Shown: positions 2,450 through 7,552 of the stretch, piece after piece
Position numbering within the stretch: position 1 is the stretch's first letter
Layout of the letters: every line of letters starts with the position of its first letter
Source: Peptoniphilus rachelemmaiella
GTDB lineage: Bacteria > Bacillota > Clostridia > Tissierellales > Peptoniphilaceae
NCBI RefSeq assembly: GCF_943169845.1
Contig: NZ_CALPBW010000010.1
Span: 1 to 64,000, forward strand
Reading direction: 5' to 3'
DNA: 64,000 bases
The notes under the pieces: generated by a model
What the model was told of the DNA's origin: nothing
Databases searched by the model: none
What the model saw: only the letters and a program-made list of their open reading frames with translations
Position numbers and translations under genes: made by a program

Positions 2450-3799
2450 ATGTCTCATAGATTTGATTATATCGTTATCGGCGGCGGCAGCGGCGGCATT
2501 GCCACGGCCAATCGGGCAGCCCAATACGGCGCCAAGGTGGCCGTCGTCGAACAAAACCAATTAGGCGGCACCTGCGTGAACCGGGGCTGTGTGCCGAAAA
2601 AAATCCTTTGGTACGCCTCGGGCATTCGCCGCACACTGGAAACGGAAACATCGCCCTACGGCTATGACCTCGGCCCATGGTCTTTCGACTACAAGAAGCT
2701 GCGGGAGTCCCAAATGGCCTATGTGGATCGGGCTCGAAGCGCCTACGAAAAAAACATGAAGAACAACGGCATTACCCACATTCAGGGCCAAGCACGCTTT
2801 GTGGACGCCAACACCGTGGAAGTGGGCGGCGAAGAATACACCGCCGAGCACATTACCATTGCATCCGGCGCCTCCCCCACGCCCTGCCCCATTGAGGGCG
2901 GCGAGTTGGTGGATTATTCCAACGACTTTTTCCGCTGGGAAGAACTGCCGAAATCCGTGGCCGTCGTCGGCGGCGGCTACATCGGCACGGAACTTTCCTC
3001 CTTCCTCGCCGGCATGGGCGTGGAGGTCCACTACCTGGTGCGGGGCGATCGGATCTTAAAGAAATTCGACGAAGCCATTACCGATGAAGTCACGAAAATG
3101 ATTCAAGCAGGCGGCGTGAACATTCACTTCGACACGGAATCCAAGCGCTTCGAAAAGGTCGATGAAGGCATAAAAATCACCTTTAAAGACGGCACCACCG
3201 CCGTCTACGACCGCATCCTTTGGGCCGGCGGCGTCACCCCCAACACGAAGGATCTGAGTTTAGACAAGGCCGGCGTCGATGTGGACGACAAGGGCCGCAT
3301 TGTCACCGACACTTACGAAAATACGAGCCAAAAGGGCATTTATGCCGTCGGCGATGTCACTGGGAAATTGGATCTCACTCCGGTGGCCATTGCCGCCGGA
3401 CGTCGCCTTTCCGATCGCCTCTTCGGCGGCAAGAAAGACGCCCACTTGGTCTACGAAGACATTCCCACGGTGGTCTTCTCCCACCCGCCCATGGGTTCCG
3501 TGGGCCTCACAAAAAAAGCTGCTGTAAAAGCCTACGGCGAAGAAAACATCAAGGTCTACGACACCTCCTTTACGGACATGCGCTCCAGCGTGGCGGCAGA
3601 CGGGCTCACCAATAAAATGCTTCTCGTCTGCGCCGGCGAGGAGGAGAAAATCGTGGGCATTCACGCCGTCGGCGAAGGCGTGGACGAAATGATGCAGGGC
3701 TTTGCCGTGGCCGTGAAAATGGGTGCCACCAAAGCCGACTTCGACGCCACCGTGGCCATTCACCCCACCGGGGCGGAAGAAATGGTTACCATGAGATAA
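2450..3799 (+). CDS. Glutathione reductase-like NAD(P)-disulfide oxidoreductase
   Basis: A 449-residue flavoprotein of the pyridine nucleotide-disulfide oxidoreductase class I. FAD-binding GGGSGG is at residues 11-16. The redox-active disulfide GGTCVNRGC has cysteines at 42 and 47. A second dinucleotide fold ([12 protein letters not shown]) is near 175, the FAD motif AVGDVTG near 300, and the dimerisation-domain HPTGAEE at the C-terminus supplies the catalytic His-Glu pair. The C-terminal ending is that of glutathione-disulfide reductases, but mycothiol- or other low-molecular-weight disulfide substrates cannot be excluded. The start is ATG at 2450 with AAAGGAG at 2438-2444; the upstream GTG at 2435 overlaps that site. 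It is a single-gene unit between two terminators. Confidence 0.9.
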
Positions 3800-3811
3800 T
3801 GAATAAAAAAC

Positions 3812-3848
3812 AAAACGCTTCTACTGAGCTTGGTAGAGGCGTTTTTTC
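3812..3848 (+). terminator. Terminator after the disulfide reductase gene
   Basis: A 13-pair stem (AAAACGCTTCTAC with GTAGAGGCGTTTT, one G-U pair) followed by TTTT on the plus strand. Confidence 0.85.
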
Positions 3849-3854
3849 TTGAAA

Positions 3855-3890
3855 ATGAAAATCCCGCCGGCAACATCGCCGACAGGATTT
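3855..3890 (-). terminator. Terminator of the first stalk-protein gene
   Basis: On the minus strand, stem AAATCCTGTCGGC / GCCGGCGGGATTT with a T-run, immediately after the stop of the gene at 3898. It converges with the plus-strand terminator just upstream. Confidence 0.8.
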
Positions 3891-3897
3891 CGTCTCT

Positions 3898-4677
3898 TTA
3901 TTTTCCTACGCGAACCGTCATGAGAATATCGTCGATGCGGTCACTCGCCTTTTCGAATTTTTCCTTCAGGGCCTTGTCTTGAATCATCGCCGGGTCGCCC
4001 CTGAAATCCGCGCCGTAATAAACGCCGTCTTTGTAGGCGAGAATGACGGGCCAATTGTACCACTCCGTCCGCGGATTTTCCACACGGGAAAGGGAGAAGA
4101 GGAAGCCGTCGCTGCCCGCATCGTCATTGGATTTTTCGTAGAAGTGGAGGCATGTGCCTTCGAGCTTGTAGGAGATCGCCACATCCTTGGGCAGCACAAA
4201 GGACATGTCCACGTCTTTCACATAGATGCGCTCGCCGGCCGGCGCATCCTTTTGGGGATAGCTTCCCACGGTGACGACGCGCACCTTCGGCATCCACTTG
4301 ACGGGAAGCCCCGTGGCCTCGCCTAAGTAGCGGGCCGGAATAAAGGTGCGATCATTCTCGAGGTAAGGCGCCACGTCCATGGAGGCCGTCTTGTCGCCCA
4401 GGCGATAGGATTTCTTTCCGATGGTCATGACCACGGAAGCATCGCCCTTCGTCAAGGTCACTTCTTTTTTATCGCCGTCCCACGCCACGGTGTAGCCCAG
4501 CTCTTCGGTGACGGCACGCAGTGGCAGAAAGGTGCGGTCGTGGCGAATGACGGGCGTCGTTTCTTCGGCTATCAGCTCCCGGCCGTTAACGTAAATCGCG
4601 ATGGGATCCGGCCCCTTCGCCAGGGCCGTCGAGGGAAGGAGCAGCAAGCAGATTAATAATGTGGCCAACTTTTTCAT
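3898..4677 (-). CDS. Secreted stalk-domain (copper amine oxidase N-like) protein A
   Basis: A 259-residue exported protein. It has a Sec signal peptide at 1-20 (MKKLATLL... ending ALA) and then two copper-amine-oxidase-N-like repeats (PF07833 type) at about 27-145, with the hallmark pairs DRTFLPLRAVTEELGY and DRTFIPARYLGEATG. An unrelated C-terminal domain follows at about 160-259; I do not recognise it. In this domain family the N-terminal part is a cell-surface stalk, not an enzyme. I start at 4677 because AAGGAGG lies 7 bases upstream; a longer in-frame ATG has no ribosome site. The first ~160 residues and the promoter are nearly identical to the neighbour at 4999-6093, while the C-termini are unrelated. 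Function unknown; expression is probably phase variable. Confidence 0.88.
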   Translation of the reverse strand: MKKLATLLICLLLLPSTALAKGPDPIAIYVNGRELIAEETTPVIRHDRTFLPLRAVTEELGYTVAWDGDKKEVTLTKGDASVVMTIGKKSYRLGDKTASMDVAPYLENDRTFIPARYLGEATGLPVKWMPKVRVVTVGSYPQKDAPAGERIYVKDVDMSFVLPKDVAISYKLEGTCLHFYEKSNDDAGSDGFLFSLSRVENPRTEWYNWPVILAYKDGVYYGADFRGDPAMIQDKALKEKFEKASDRIDDILMTVRVGK

Positions 4678-4895
4678 AAAAAACCTCCTTCGATCATCCG
4701 TAGATGATTGCATTTTATCTTACACTTCACGTCATCTCTTGCTTCCACGGTGAATTTACAAAAAATCACCCATAATCAATGGATCGTAGCAGAAGAGTTT
4801 GTGCTTTCCTACTTTTATTATACCCCCCCCCCGACAGTTTTTCAATACTTATATGAGCACGGGGCATCGACCGCTTACGCCCGATGAAATTTTTC
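4242..4895 (-). repeat. Tandem duplication, copy 1
   Basis: This segment is the near-identical partner of 5659-6306. It covers the promoter with its G-run, the ~130-base untranslated leader, the signal peptide and the whole stalk domain. Similarity stops abruptly after the residues GSYPQKDAP, where the two C-terminal domains diverge. Divergence is mostly third-codon changes and one-base indels, so the duplication is recent. Confidence 0.9.
4817..4845 (-). promoter_or_regulatory. Promoter with 10-G spacer (putative phase-variable), copy 1
   Basis: On the minus strand, TTGAAA (4840-4845), a 17-base spacer and TATAAT (4817-4822). The last ten bases of the spacer, next to the -10, are all G (4823-4832). 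Homopolymer runs in a promoter spacer are a known slipped-strand phase-variation device (as in Neisseria porA and Bordetella fim promoters). Here 10 G give the optimal 17-base spacing. The predicted start of transcription is about 130 bases before the gene at 4677. Confidence 0.8.
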
Positions 4896-4905
4896 GTTCA
4901 ACAAG

Positions 4906-4945
4906 GGAACCCCCGATCTAACCGAGGGTTTTCTAATGCAAAAAA
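4906..4945 (+). repeat. Dispersed double-hairpin repeat, copy A
   Basis: AACCCCCGAT-CTA-ACCGAGGGTT followed by TTCTAATGCAAAAAAGC. The same arrangement recurs at 30807-30849 and, truncated, at 37931-37955. Each copy is followed directly by a second, unrelated hairpin. Confidence 0.75.
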
Positions 4946-4970
4946 GCATCTCTTCACCGAGATGCTTTCG
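4939..4970 (-). terminator. Terminator of the second stalk-protein gene
   Basis: Minus-strand stem AAAGCATCTC / GAGATGCTTT followed by TTTG, 30 bases after the stop of the gene at 4999. The rest of the 321-base gap 4678-4998 holds the promoter and leader of protein A and repeat copy A. Confidence 0.85.
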
Positions 4971-4998
4971 CCCTTTGTCGTGTACTTGATTTTTAATT

Positions 4999-6093
4999 TT
5001 ACATCTTTACCGAAGTCAAGACGGACATAATGCCGTCGATGGCGTAGGAGCGTCGGCTCGGCACCTCGCCCTGTTTTCGCGGTTCTTTTTCTTTCAATGT
5101 GGCGACCAAATAGTTCCCGTCTTTCGCGCCTAAGAGGAGCTGGCCTTTTTTCGGGAAGTCTTTGGAATTTTCTTCGATGGTGCCTAAAATTTCGCCGGTG
5201 GCTTTAAACTTAAAGGCGATGCTGCCTTTGCCCTTTACCACTTCCACGCCTTCGATGCCGTCTTCCGGCCAGTCCCAGGTAATGTCGGGTTTGGTCAGGC
5301 TTTCTTTTTTTGTGATGTCGCTGTAGGCCAAATCCCTTCGATCAAAGGTGCCTAAGATGAGAAGATGTTTCTCTTCATCATAGCAGACGGTCTTTTTCTG
5401 CGATTCGAAGACCGTTTCCATGTTCACGTAGCGCTTGTCGCCTTGACGGAGGACGGTATCCTTTCGAATGGGTATTTGAATGATCTTCTCCCGCGTCGTT
5501 TTAAAGGACACATTTTTATCGTCTTTCACAGGCAGATAGCATGCCTTTTCCATGACCACCTCTTCGTCGATGAAGACCTTGCCGTTTTTTTCCACGTAGT
5601 CCGATGTGTCCAAGAGTTGCCCGCAAAAAATCACCCGGTCCACGGTTCGCGATGTCGGTGCGTCTTTTTGAGGATAGCTTCCCACGGTGACGATGCGCGC
5701 CTTCGGCATCCACTTGACGGGAAGACCCGTGGCCTCGCCTAGGTAGCGAGCCGGAATAAAGGTGCGGTCCTTTTCCAAATAAGGAGCCACGTCCATGGAG
5801 GCCGTCTTGTCGCCCAGGCGATAGGATTTCTTGCCGATGGTCATGACCACGGAGGCGTCGCCCTTCGTCAAGGTGACTTCTTTTTTGTCTCCGTTCCATG
5901 CCACGGTGTAGCCCAATTCTTCGGTGACGGCCCGCAAGGGCAGGAAGGTGCGGTCGTGGCGAATGACGGGCGCCGCATCTTCGGTAAAAAGTTCCCGGCC
6001 GTTGACGTAAACCGCAATGGGATCGGGCCCCTTCGCCAAGGCCGCCGATGGAAGGAGCAGGAAACAGAGTAACAATGTGGCTAACTTTTTCAT
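4999..6093 (-). CDS. Secreted stalk-domain (copper amine oxidase N-like) protein B
   Basis: A 364-residue exported paralogue of the protein at 3898. It has a signal peptide at 1-20 ending ALA and the same two stalk repeats to about residue 145. From about residue 163 a different C-terminal part of ~200 residues follows that I do not recognise; it starts with another stalk-like segment (a VIFCGQLLDTSDYVEKNGKVF type strand pair). The start at 6093 is preceded by AAGGAGG. The N-terminal half, leader and promoter match protein A almost exactly. It is probably a surface-exposed protein with a constant anchor/stalk and variable outer domain. Function unknown. Confidence 0.88.
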   Translation of the reverse strand: MKKLATLLLCFLLLPSAALAKGPDPIAVYVNGRELFTEDAAPVIRHDRTFLPLRAVTEELGYTVAWNGDKKEVTLTKGDASVVMTIGKKSYRLGDKTASMDVAPYLEKDRTFIPARYLGEATGLPVKWMPKARIVTVGSYPQKDAPTSRTVDRVIFCGQLLDTSDYVEKNGKVFIDEEVVMEKACYLPVKDDKNVSFKTTREKIIQIPIRKDTVLRQGDKRYVNMETVFESQKKTVCYDEEKHLLILGTFDRRDLAYSDITKKESLTKPDITWDWPEDGIEGVEVVKGKGSIAFKFKATGEILGTIEENSKDFPKKGQLLLGAKDGNYLVATLKEKEPRKQGEVPSRRSYAIDGIMSVLTSVKM

Positions 6094-6306
6094 AAATACC
6101 TCCTTCGATCATCCATAGATGATTGCATTTTATCTTACACTCACGTCATCTCTTGCTTCCACGGTGAATTTACAAAAAACACCCATAATCAATGGATCGT
6201 AGCAGAAGAATTTGTGCTTTCCTACTTTTATTATACCCCCCCCCGACAGTTTTTCAATGCTTTATGGGCAAGGCCACCATCGCTCTCGGCCGATGAAATA
6301 TTTCCG
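5659..6306 (-). repeat. Tandem duplication, copy 2
   Basis: Partner of 4242-4895; see that entry for the matched elements. Copy 2 differs by 9 rather than 10 G in the promoter and by scattered substitutions. Confidence 0.9.
6230..6257 (-). promoter_or_regulatory. Promoter with 9-G spacer (putative phase-variable), copy 2
   Basis: On the minus strand, TTGAAA (6252-6257), a 16-base spacer ending in nine G (6236-6244), and TATAAT (6230-6235). It is identical to copy 1 except for one G fewer, giving a 16-base instead of a 17-base spacer. The two promoters are therefore expected to have different strengths in this clone. Confidence 0.8.
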
Positions 6307-6311
6307 TACAA

Positions 6312-6340
6312 TAAAAAAAGCGCCGGTTTCCCGACGCTTC
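6312..6340 (-). terminator. Terminator of the flavodiiron protein gene
   Basis: Minus-strand stem GAAGCGTCGG / CCGGCGCTTT with loop and T-run, right after the stop. Confidence 0.85.
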
Positions 6341-6343
6341 TCA

Positions 6344-7552
6344 TTACTTGCTTGCCTTTAAGGCTTCGGCCATTTCCTTGGCCAATTGTGCACATTTGTC
6401 TAAGTCTTCTTGTTTCGGGGCGCCCATAACATCCACGGTGGTGGGGAGCACGTCCCATTTGCTTTCTTCGGCGAAAGCGGCGAATACTTTTTCCGCGCCG
6501 CCGCCCCAGCTGGCGTTGGTGAAGGTGCCTAAGATGTGGTTTTTCATTTTTTGTTTCTTCAGCACTTCGACCAAATTGGCCATGGGCGGGAACAGACCGA
6601 CATTGTAGGTGGGGCAGCCCAAGATAATGCCCTTGTAGTTCCAGGTTTCGCTGATTAAATAGCTGATATGGGTCTTGGATACGTCGCGAATGCGAATGTT
6701 GCGCACGCCTTCTTGGGTCAAGGAGCGGGCGATGGCTTCGGCGACTTGTTCCGTGTTGCCGTACATGGAGCCGTAGACGATAAGGACGCCGTCTTCGGTT
6801 TTTTGTTCGCTTAAATCGCTGTAAAGGCTCACGATGCGGCCGATGTTGTCGCGCCATACGGGGCCGTGGTCCGGGCAGATCATCTTAATGTCCAAGCCAC
6901 CTAATTTCTTCAGAGCACGGATGACTTGCACGCTGTACTTGCCGACGATGTTGGTGTAGTAGCGAATGGTTTCTTCGCGGTATTTTTCCCAATCCACTTG
7001 GTCGTCGAAAATAGCGCCGTCTAAGGTGCCGAAGCCGCCGAACGCGTCTTGGCTGAAGAGAATGCCCGTTTCTTCTTCGAAGCAGACCATGGATTCGGGC
7101 CAGTGAACCATGGGCGTGGTGTAAAAGGTGAGCTTCCTCTCGCCGATGTCCACGGATTCGCCGTCTCCTACGAGAATGGCGCGGTCTTCGCCGATGGCGT
7201 AGAAGTTTTCCATCATGGTGACGGCTTTTTTGTTGGTAATGATCTTACATTCCGGGTAGCGTTCCAACACGCTCTTTAAAGAAGAGGTGTGGTCCGGTTC
7301 CATGTGGTTGACCACGACAAAATCGAGCTTTCTGCCGTTAAGGGCGTCGTCTAATTTTTCGAAAAATTCCGACACGGAGTCGATGCGGACACAGTCTAAA
7401 AGACAGGTCTTGCTGCCGCCGTCGAAGAGATAGGAGTTGTAGCTGATGCCGTCGGGCAGGGGCCACATGCCTTCGAATAAATGGGTGTAGCGGTCGTTTA
7501 CACCGATGTAATGGACGTGATCATTGATTTTTACAAATCGCGTTGCTGCCAT
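6344..7552 (-). CDS. Flavodiiron protein (A-type flavoprotein)
   Basis: A 402-residue cytoplasmic enzyme that reduces oxygen to water and/or NO to N2O, protecting anaerobes. The N-terminal metallo-beta-lactamase-like domain (about 1-250) carries the diiron ligands in HMEPDH (H83, E85, D87, H88), HWPES near 148, SQDAFGG near 167 and CPDHGP near 228. The flavodoxin domain (about 255-402) begins LIVYGSMYGNTEQ, the FMN phosphate loop. Length and layout match class A flavodiiron proteins without extra C-terminal modules, so an external rubredoxin or similar donor is expected. The start at 7552 has AAAGGTGAT upstream. It is a single-gene unit. Confidence 0.96.
   Translation of the reverse strand: MAATRFVKINDHVHYIGVNDRYTHLFEGMWPLPDGISYNSYLFDGGSKTCLLDCVRIDSVSEFFEKLDDALNGRKLDFVVVNHMEPDHTSSLKSVLERYPECKIITNKKAVTMMENFYAIGEDRAILVGDGESVDIGERKLTFYTTPMVHWPESMVCFEEETGILFSQDAFGGFGTLDGAIFDDQVDWEKYREETIRYYTNIVGKYSVQVIRALKKLGGLDIKMICPDHGPVWRDNIGRIVSLYSDLSEQKTEDGVLIVYGSMYGNTEQVAEAIARSLTQEGVRNIRIRDVSKTHISYLISETWNYKGIILGCPTYNVGLFPPMANLVEVLKKQKMKNHILGTFTNASWGGGAEKVFAAFAEESKWDVLPTTVDVMGAPKQEDLDKCAQLAKEMAEALKASK

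Follow-up and report, generated by a model that had tools for sequence, protein, structure and literature searches.

Twin promoters with poly-G spacers precede two stalk-domain genes of Peptoniphilus rachelemmaiella: a candidate phase-variable switch

Two stalk-domain protein genes of Peptoniphilus rachelemmaiella, a human-associated anaerobe, each lie behind a promoter whose -35 and -10 hexamers are separated by a spacer containing a homopolymeric G tract, and we consider it likely that this layout supports slipped-strand variation of promoter spacing at each gene's own sigma-A-type promoter. Both genes are located in the stretch analysed here (the window; 64,000 nucleotides), which is part of the 80-kb contig 10 of a draft genome of 1.91 Mb in 41 contigs (labelled G000 in our genome comparison). 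The spacer of each sigma-A-type promoter would comprise 7 bp plus the G tract; polymerase slippage in the tract at replication would add or remove one G, gain or loss would move spacer length around 17 bp one base at a time, and transcription of the secreted stalk-domain protein would be raised or lowered, separately for each copy. We infer slippage within a clone, and its effect on expression, from the porA, fetA and tp0126 systems.

Table 1 Features of the twin stalk-gene region (positions in the window)
Feature	Position	Strand	Basis or remark
Stalk-domain protein, copy 1, 259 aa	3898..4677 (stop included)	-	PF07833
Start-site region and leader, copy 1 (predicted transcript start)	4678..4816	-	Reading, alignment, fold test
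-10 TATAAT, copy 1	4817..4822	-	Direct reading, sigma-70 scan, script
G10 tract, copy 1	4823..4832	-	Inside 17-bp spacer 4823-4839; direct reading, script
AACTGTC, copy 1 spacer, non-G part	4833..4839	-	Direct reading
-35 TTGAAA, copy 1	4840..4845	-	Direct reading, sigma-70 scan, script
Hairpin and T run, probable terminator, between copy 2 and copy 1 promoter	4942..4969	-	Fold test
Stalk-domain protein, copy 2, 364 aa, C-terminal part unlike copy 1	4999..6093	-	PF07833
Start-site region and leader, copy 2 (predicted transcript start)	6094..6229	-	Alignment with copy 1
-10 TATAAT, copy 2	6230..6235	-	Direct reading, sigma-70 scan, script
G9 tract, copy 2	6236..6244	-	Inside 16-bp spacer 6236-6251; direct reading, script
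AACTGTC, copy 2 spacer, non-G part	6245..6251	-	Direct reading
-35 TTGAAA, copy 2	6252..6257	-	Direct reading, sigma-70 scan, script
Terminator-like hairpin after the preceding gene, 5' of copy 2 promoter	6315..6342	-	Consensus scan and fold test

The initial annotation had described, on the minus strand 5' of both stalk genes, the order TTGAAA, AACTGTC, G(n) and TATAAT, with n = 10 and a 17-bp spacer in copy 1 (4817-4845) and n = 9 and a 16-bp spacer in copy 2 (6230-6257); direct reading and script measurement reproduced every element of this description, and recognisable -35 and -10 hexamers enclose the homopolymer at both promoters (Table 1). A sigma-70 consensus scan of positions 3700-6500 scored both tract sites at 11/12 and the two remaining sites at 9, making the tract sites the best pair, with the total of four sites near the shuffled expectation (mean 2.0, sd 1.4). 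Copy 1 (17 bp) is predicted to be stronger than copy 2 (16 bp) and both should work to some degree, a contrast that amounts to one homopolymer base in a 41-contig draft, where an assembly error is possible. A sequencing or assembly error behind the 10 versus 9 G would leave the layout real and silent on the state of the copies; we judge it improbable, given that both tracts have unique flanks within one 80-kb contig and that lengths differ in other genomes too, although the assembly is fragmented and two of its contig ends carry 8 and 16 G. Such runs of 8-16 G at or close to contig ends (the end of G000:C31, L120; the start of G000:C36, L121; and the start of G006:C12, L087) are probably sequencing artefacts.

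Hairpins with T runs precede both promoters, and the two stalk genes therefore look like separate units. The stretch around the hairpin between them (4938-4975) folded at -15.7 kcal/mol (z -3.73) in the fold test and is absent from the terminators listed by the consensus scan. The two genes, initially proposed to vary independently, could thus be expressed independently, each having its own promoter and a hairpin before it. The leaders gave no fold signal in either copy (z -0.39 and -0.14), and an RNA element there was rejected, the sole Rfam match of the region being sroD at 6314-6418 with a score of 23.2 against a gathering score of 50. A translational switch was likewise ruled out for the window genes, where the tract sits 5' of the leader and the ribosome-binding site. 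At a relative's locus (G007:C2), a 396-aa frame is open through a G8 tract into the stalk gene; the start there is more likely an ATG preceded by a ribosome-binding site of its own.

Both products matched Pfam PF07833 (copy 1, E 8.8e-32; copy 2, E 7.2e-34) with bit scores of 109.7 and 116.4, well above the gathering score of 24.2, while NCBIfam models gave zero matches to either protein. Signal peptides were judged by sight at both N-termini, as for most genes behind tract promoters, which makes both products, earlier designated as secreted, candidates for a secreted or surface location. To our knowledge, the role of PF07833 stalk proteins is unsettled. Predicted structures were good for copy 1 (mean pLDDT 88.2) and poor for copy 2 (72.2); the clear PDB matches were E. 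coli amine oxidase entries with TM-scores of only 0.19-0.28, which agree with the stalk domain's name and yield no function. Residues 145-364 of copy 2 (window 5002-5661) share 89% identity with a stand-alone lipoprotein of the same genome (L045, G000:C7:27279-27938), and copy 2 accordingly looks like a fusion of the stalk domain with this lipoprotein. Elsewhere in the genus, an identical 263-aa stalk protein occurs in three species (G001:C20, L060; G002:C19, L042; G005:C3, L054), which suggests recent exchange.

The G-tract promoter layout is not due to chance. With up to three mismatches, TTGAAAAACTGTCGGGGGGG occurred twice in the window against a mean of 0.01 in 100 shuffles, and the genome search proposed by the initial annotation, run with this 20-base motif at up to two mismatches, returned only the two window sites in 1.91 Mb. 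Runs of at least eight G show no excess in this genome (seven, including two at contig ends, against ~55 expected from a simple base-composition estimate using the window's G+C), and all three internal runs of at least nine G sit between TTGA and TATAAT. Across the eight genomes of the genus, G7-TATAAT was found at 13 sites in five genomes, with none for the reversed control and none for this strict pattern in the other three genomes. Nine of these sites stand before stalk genes and two before genes encoding a membrane protein of 120 aa; for the last two promoters, the fetched sequence contained no stalk gene. Counting runs of at least eight G irrespective of context gave 34, or 30 after the four at contig ends were dropped; 12 of the 30 are directly followed by a -10 element with 5 or 6 matches, against ~0.14 expected (19/4096 hexamers qualify, even base usage assumed), and TACAAT stands three bases beyond another of the runs. 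A looser pattern, TTGAAAAACTGTCGGGGGG with three mismatches, matched 7/8 genomes; because it also hit unrelated sites, and reversed controls in some cases, it was not counted.

Three stalk-gene promoter families share the layout, with -35 hexamers TTGAAA (A), TTGATT (B) and TTGTAT or TTGATT (C). Leaders are ~140 nt long in family A, to which the window copies belong, and ~40 nt in families B and C. Within family A the hexamers are alike in nine aligned sequences (one row cut at -35), whereas the leaders are merely 53-99% alike. The layout also precedes genes for small membrane proteins. In G005 and G007, the 120-aa protein gene has a tract promoter; the 160 nt inspected for its distant relatives (G002, G004, G006) contain no tract. 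A small membrane protein of 124 aa in G003, unmatched by the search with the 120-aa protein, has the tract layout with TATACT. Orphan promoters in G005 and G007 keep the start of the family A leader but lack a stalk gene within the fetched sequence. Such promoter-and-leader pairs, together with the ~140-nt leaders, could indicate that another promoter drives most transcription of the stalk genes, the tract promoter being a relic. This reading is very improbable, as no other minus-strand site in the leaders reaches the sigma-70 scan threshold, every family A row retains near-consensus hexamers, and the layout of families B and C lies just ~40 nt 5' of the start codon.

The layout is confined to a minority of the gene family. 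PF07833 stretches number 11 to 19 per genome. The 74 of the 120 taken for upstream analysis exclude additional stretches within one gene, matches that were weak or multidomain and those restricted to the C-terminus; one of the 74 gave no start codon. Among the resulting 73 genes (four of them lipoproteins without a stalk domain, and some with less than 320 nt upstream), only 11 have a run of at least seven G within 320 nt upstream, and most stalk genes thus have no tract, a distribution that counts against free variation. One stalk gene (G003:C1, L124; runs at 1107926-1107935 and 1108088-1108095) has a G10 at the end of its signal-peptide region and a G8 upstream, and is out of frame or a pseudogene, no start codon being joinable to the domain frame as sequenced. 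Other G runs in the genus have different surroundings. In G001, three lie in or just after TTGAC or TTGACA, with no good -10 directly behind, and the genes behind them encode SLH, SpaA and DUF5058 domains. In G004, a G9 tract (C28:31802-31810, L084) lies at the beginning of a DNA methylase gene (Pfam N6_N4_Mtase). With nine G the frame reads through the tract and stays open as far as the available sequence extends (512 aa); the gene may be a phase-variable type III methylase, which it resembles.

Spacer length was measured by script in 20 promoters, hand-picked among loci already identified; this set takes in eroded forms and omits the family B promoter of G004, which has no TTGA. Spacers of 17 bp (3 promoters), 16 bp (6), 15 bp (5), 14 bp (2), 13 bp (3) and 20 bp (1) were found; lengths therefore occur both around ~17 bp and away from it, as differences between species only. 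Nine of the 20 are 16 or 17 bp long, and tracts are interrupted in three. Judged from their sequence, promoters outside 16-17 bp should be weak or off, which is expected of switches in mixed states and also of decayed promoters; with only 9/20 in the favourable range, many of the 20 may be decayed.

Comparison of related promoters, which covered one genome per species, bears most directly on tract variability. In the best pair, from family B, the promoter motif of G000:C1 and G007:C2 is flanked by identical sequence, 291 nt on its upstream side and 131 nt on its downstream side, while the tract has 9 versus 8 G, an identity that suggests recent exchange of the segment between species. The orphan promoters of G005 and G007 have leaders alike at 143/152 bases without gaps, and tracts of 9 and 10 G. 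The two window leaders agree at 134/136 aligned bases plus two gap columns, despite 58 differences in the first 447 coding bases, and recombination has probably homogenised the upstream regions of the two copies. The window pair itself is weak evidence of tract variability, since five changes fall in this region and the tract accounts for just one of them. A scan of viral contigs for the promoter motif gave no matches. The phase-variable interpretation put forward initially thus keeps its structural part, namely that the G run forms the spacer of a near-consensus promoter and varies in length among related promoters with near-unchanged surroundings.

Alternatively, the G tract may be a fixed structural or regulator-binding element whose length drifts slowly between species with no switch. 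We regard this as unlikely, though less so than the other alternatives: relatives that are otherwise close have tracts of between 7 and 11 G, one pair differs solely in the tract over more than 420 nt, and the three promoter families have unlike flanks with only the tract and the hexamers in common. The conservation of a 7-nt non-G part in 12/20 promoters would suit a fixed element, as would the distant genome G474, in which all eight TTGA-type tract promoters have exactly nine G, a uniformity that speaks against free variation there.

That genome emerged from a wider survey. The 8-G pattern was present in 5/130 genomes of the family (Peptoniphilaceae), three of them from this genus, and G8-TATAAT in 12/391 genomes of the class (18 sites; reversed control, 2 genomes). 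Outside the window's genome, 9/15 G8-TATAAT sites have a -35 element with 5 or 6 matches at a distance of 14-20 bp (per-site chance between 0 and 0.104 in 500 draws), and the remaining six have a -35 with 3 or 4 matches. In another genus, TTGA...G7...TATAAT promoters number three in G357, eight in G474 and none in G440, and the genes behind 8/11 of them encode lipoprotein-type signal peptides as judged by sight. G474 also contains a G10-TATAAT site that lacks a clear -35. Five loci of this genome (L201, L203, L207, L209 and L210) have near-identical promoters, TTGACAAAC-G9-TGA/TGG-TATAAT, before different lipoprotein-like genes, and the one gene product scanned carries Listeria-Bacteroides repeats.

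Spacing variation by slippage has counterparts in other bacteria, here compared on the basis of excerpts from the cited papers. The statement that homopolymer promoter spacers vary surface proteins elsewhere agrees with the porA, fetA and tp0126 literature. Homopolymer promoter tracts are described for porA, fetA and opc (PMC2791445), and the meningococcal porA promoter has its homopolymer between -35 and -10 (PMC3899988); as in the window, the tract of porA and fetA occupies the spacer, where gain or loss of one base alters surface-protein transcription (PMC2791445, PMC3899988). Unlike the present case, these are outer-membrane proteins of pathogenic Neisseria, which are Gram-negative, with variation demonstrated experimentally. 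In Treponema pallidum, tp0126 likewise has a poly-G stretch separating -35 from -10, and transcription peaks at 17 nt (PMC7864442), but its product is an OmpW homologue of a spirochaete, and other tpr tracts described there lie outside the spacer.

In the Gram-positive gut bacterium Bifidobacterium breve, G-tract slippage was reported and further G tracts in promoter spacers are mentioned by the authors, but in the excerpted text the pilus tracts studied are intragenic and the promoter tracts merely mentioned (PMC9187656). One-base changes in an intergenic homopolymer alter surface-protein transcript levels at Spy1336/R28-Spy1337 of Streptococcus pyogenes, also Gram-positive, where the tract, unlike ours, consists of T and lies between divergent genes (PMC7098570). 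Gardnerella has long G/C tracts with reported length variation, ~70% of them upstream of genes; it belongs to the Actinobacteria, and the likeness, as far as the excerpt extends, is one of upstream position and not of a -35/-10 spacer (PMC11287997). In the open-licence literature searched, titles and the starts of abstracts on the genus or Peptoniphilus concerned other subjects, and those on the stalk domain did not mention phase variation. The earlier remark that no such promoter system is described for this protein family holds in that no report was found there, although the mechanism itself is known; as far as found, the novelty concerns the lineage and the gene family as well as its use at multiple loci.

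Beyond the twin promoters, the slippage model can be extended to a promoter-level phasome in Aedoeadaptatus, in which several stalk proteins and other surface proteins would each have a promoter of their own with a "7 bp plus G tract" spacer, and a population would try many random combinations. Under this model the tracts of the twin promoters would vary even though recombination keeps the promoters alike, and the design would have arisen independently before lipoprotein genes in another genus of the class. We offer this extension tentatively, as a possibility that falls somewhat short of probable. Random surface variation in Gram-positive anaerobic cocci has been little studied, as far as our literature searches show. 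If the tracts switch, G counts in reads would reveal, for several secreted proteins together, which state each is in, and the stalk proteins of PF07833 would stand out as proteins that it pays to vary, perhaps in response to pressure from the host or from phages.
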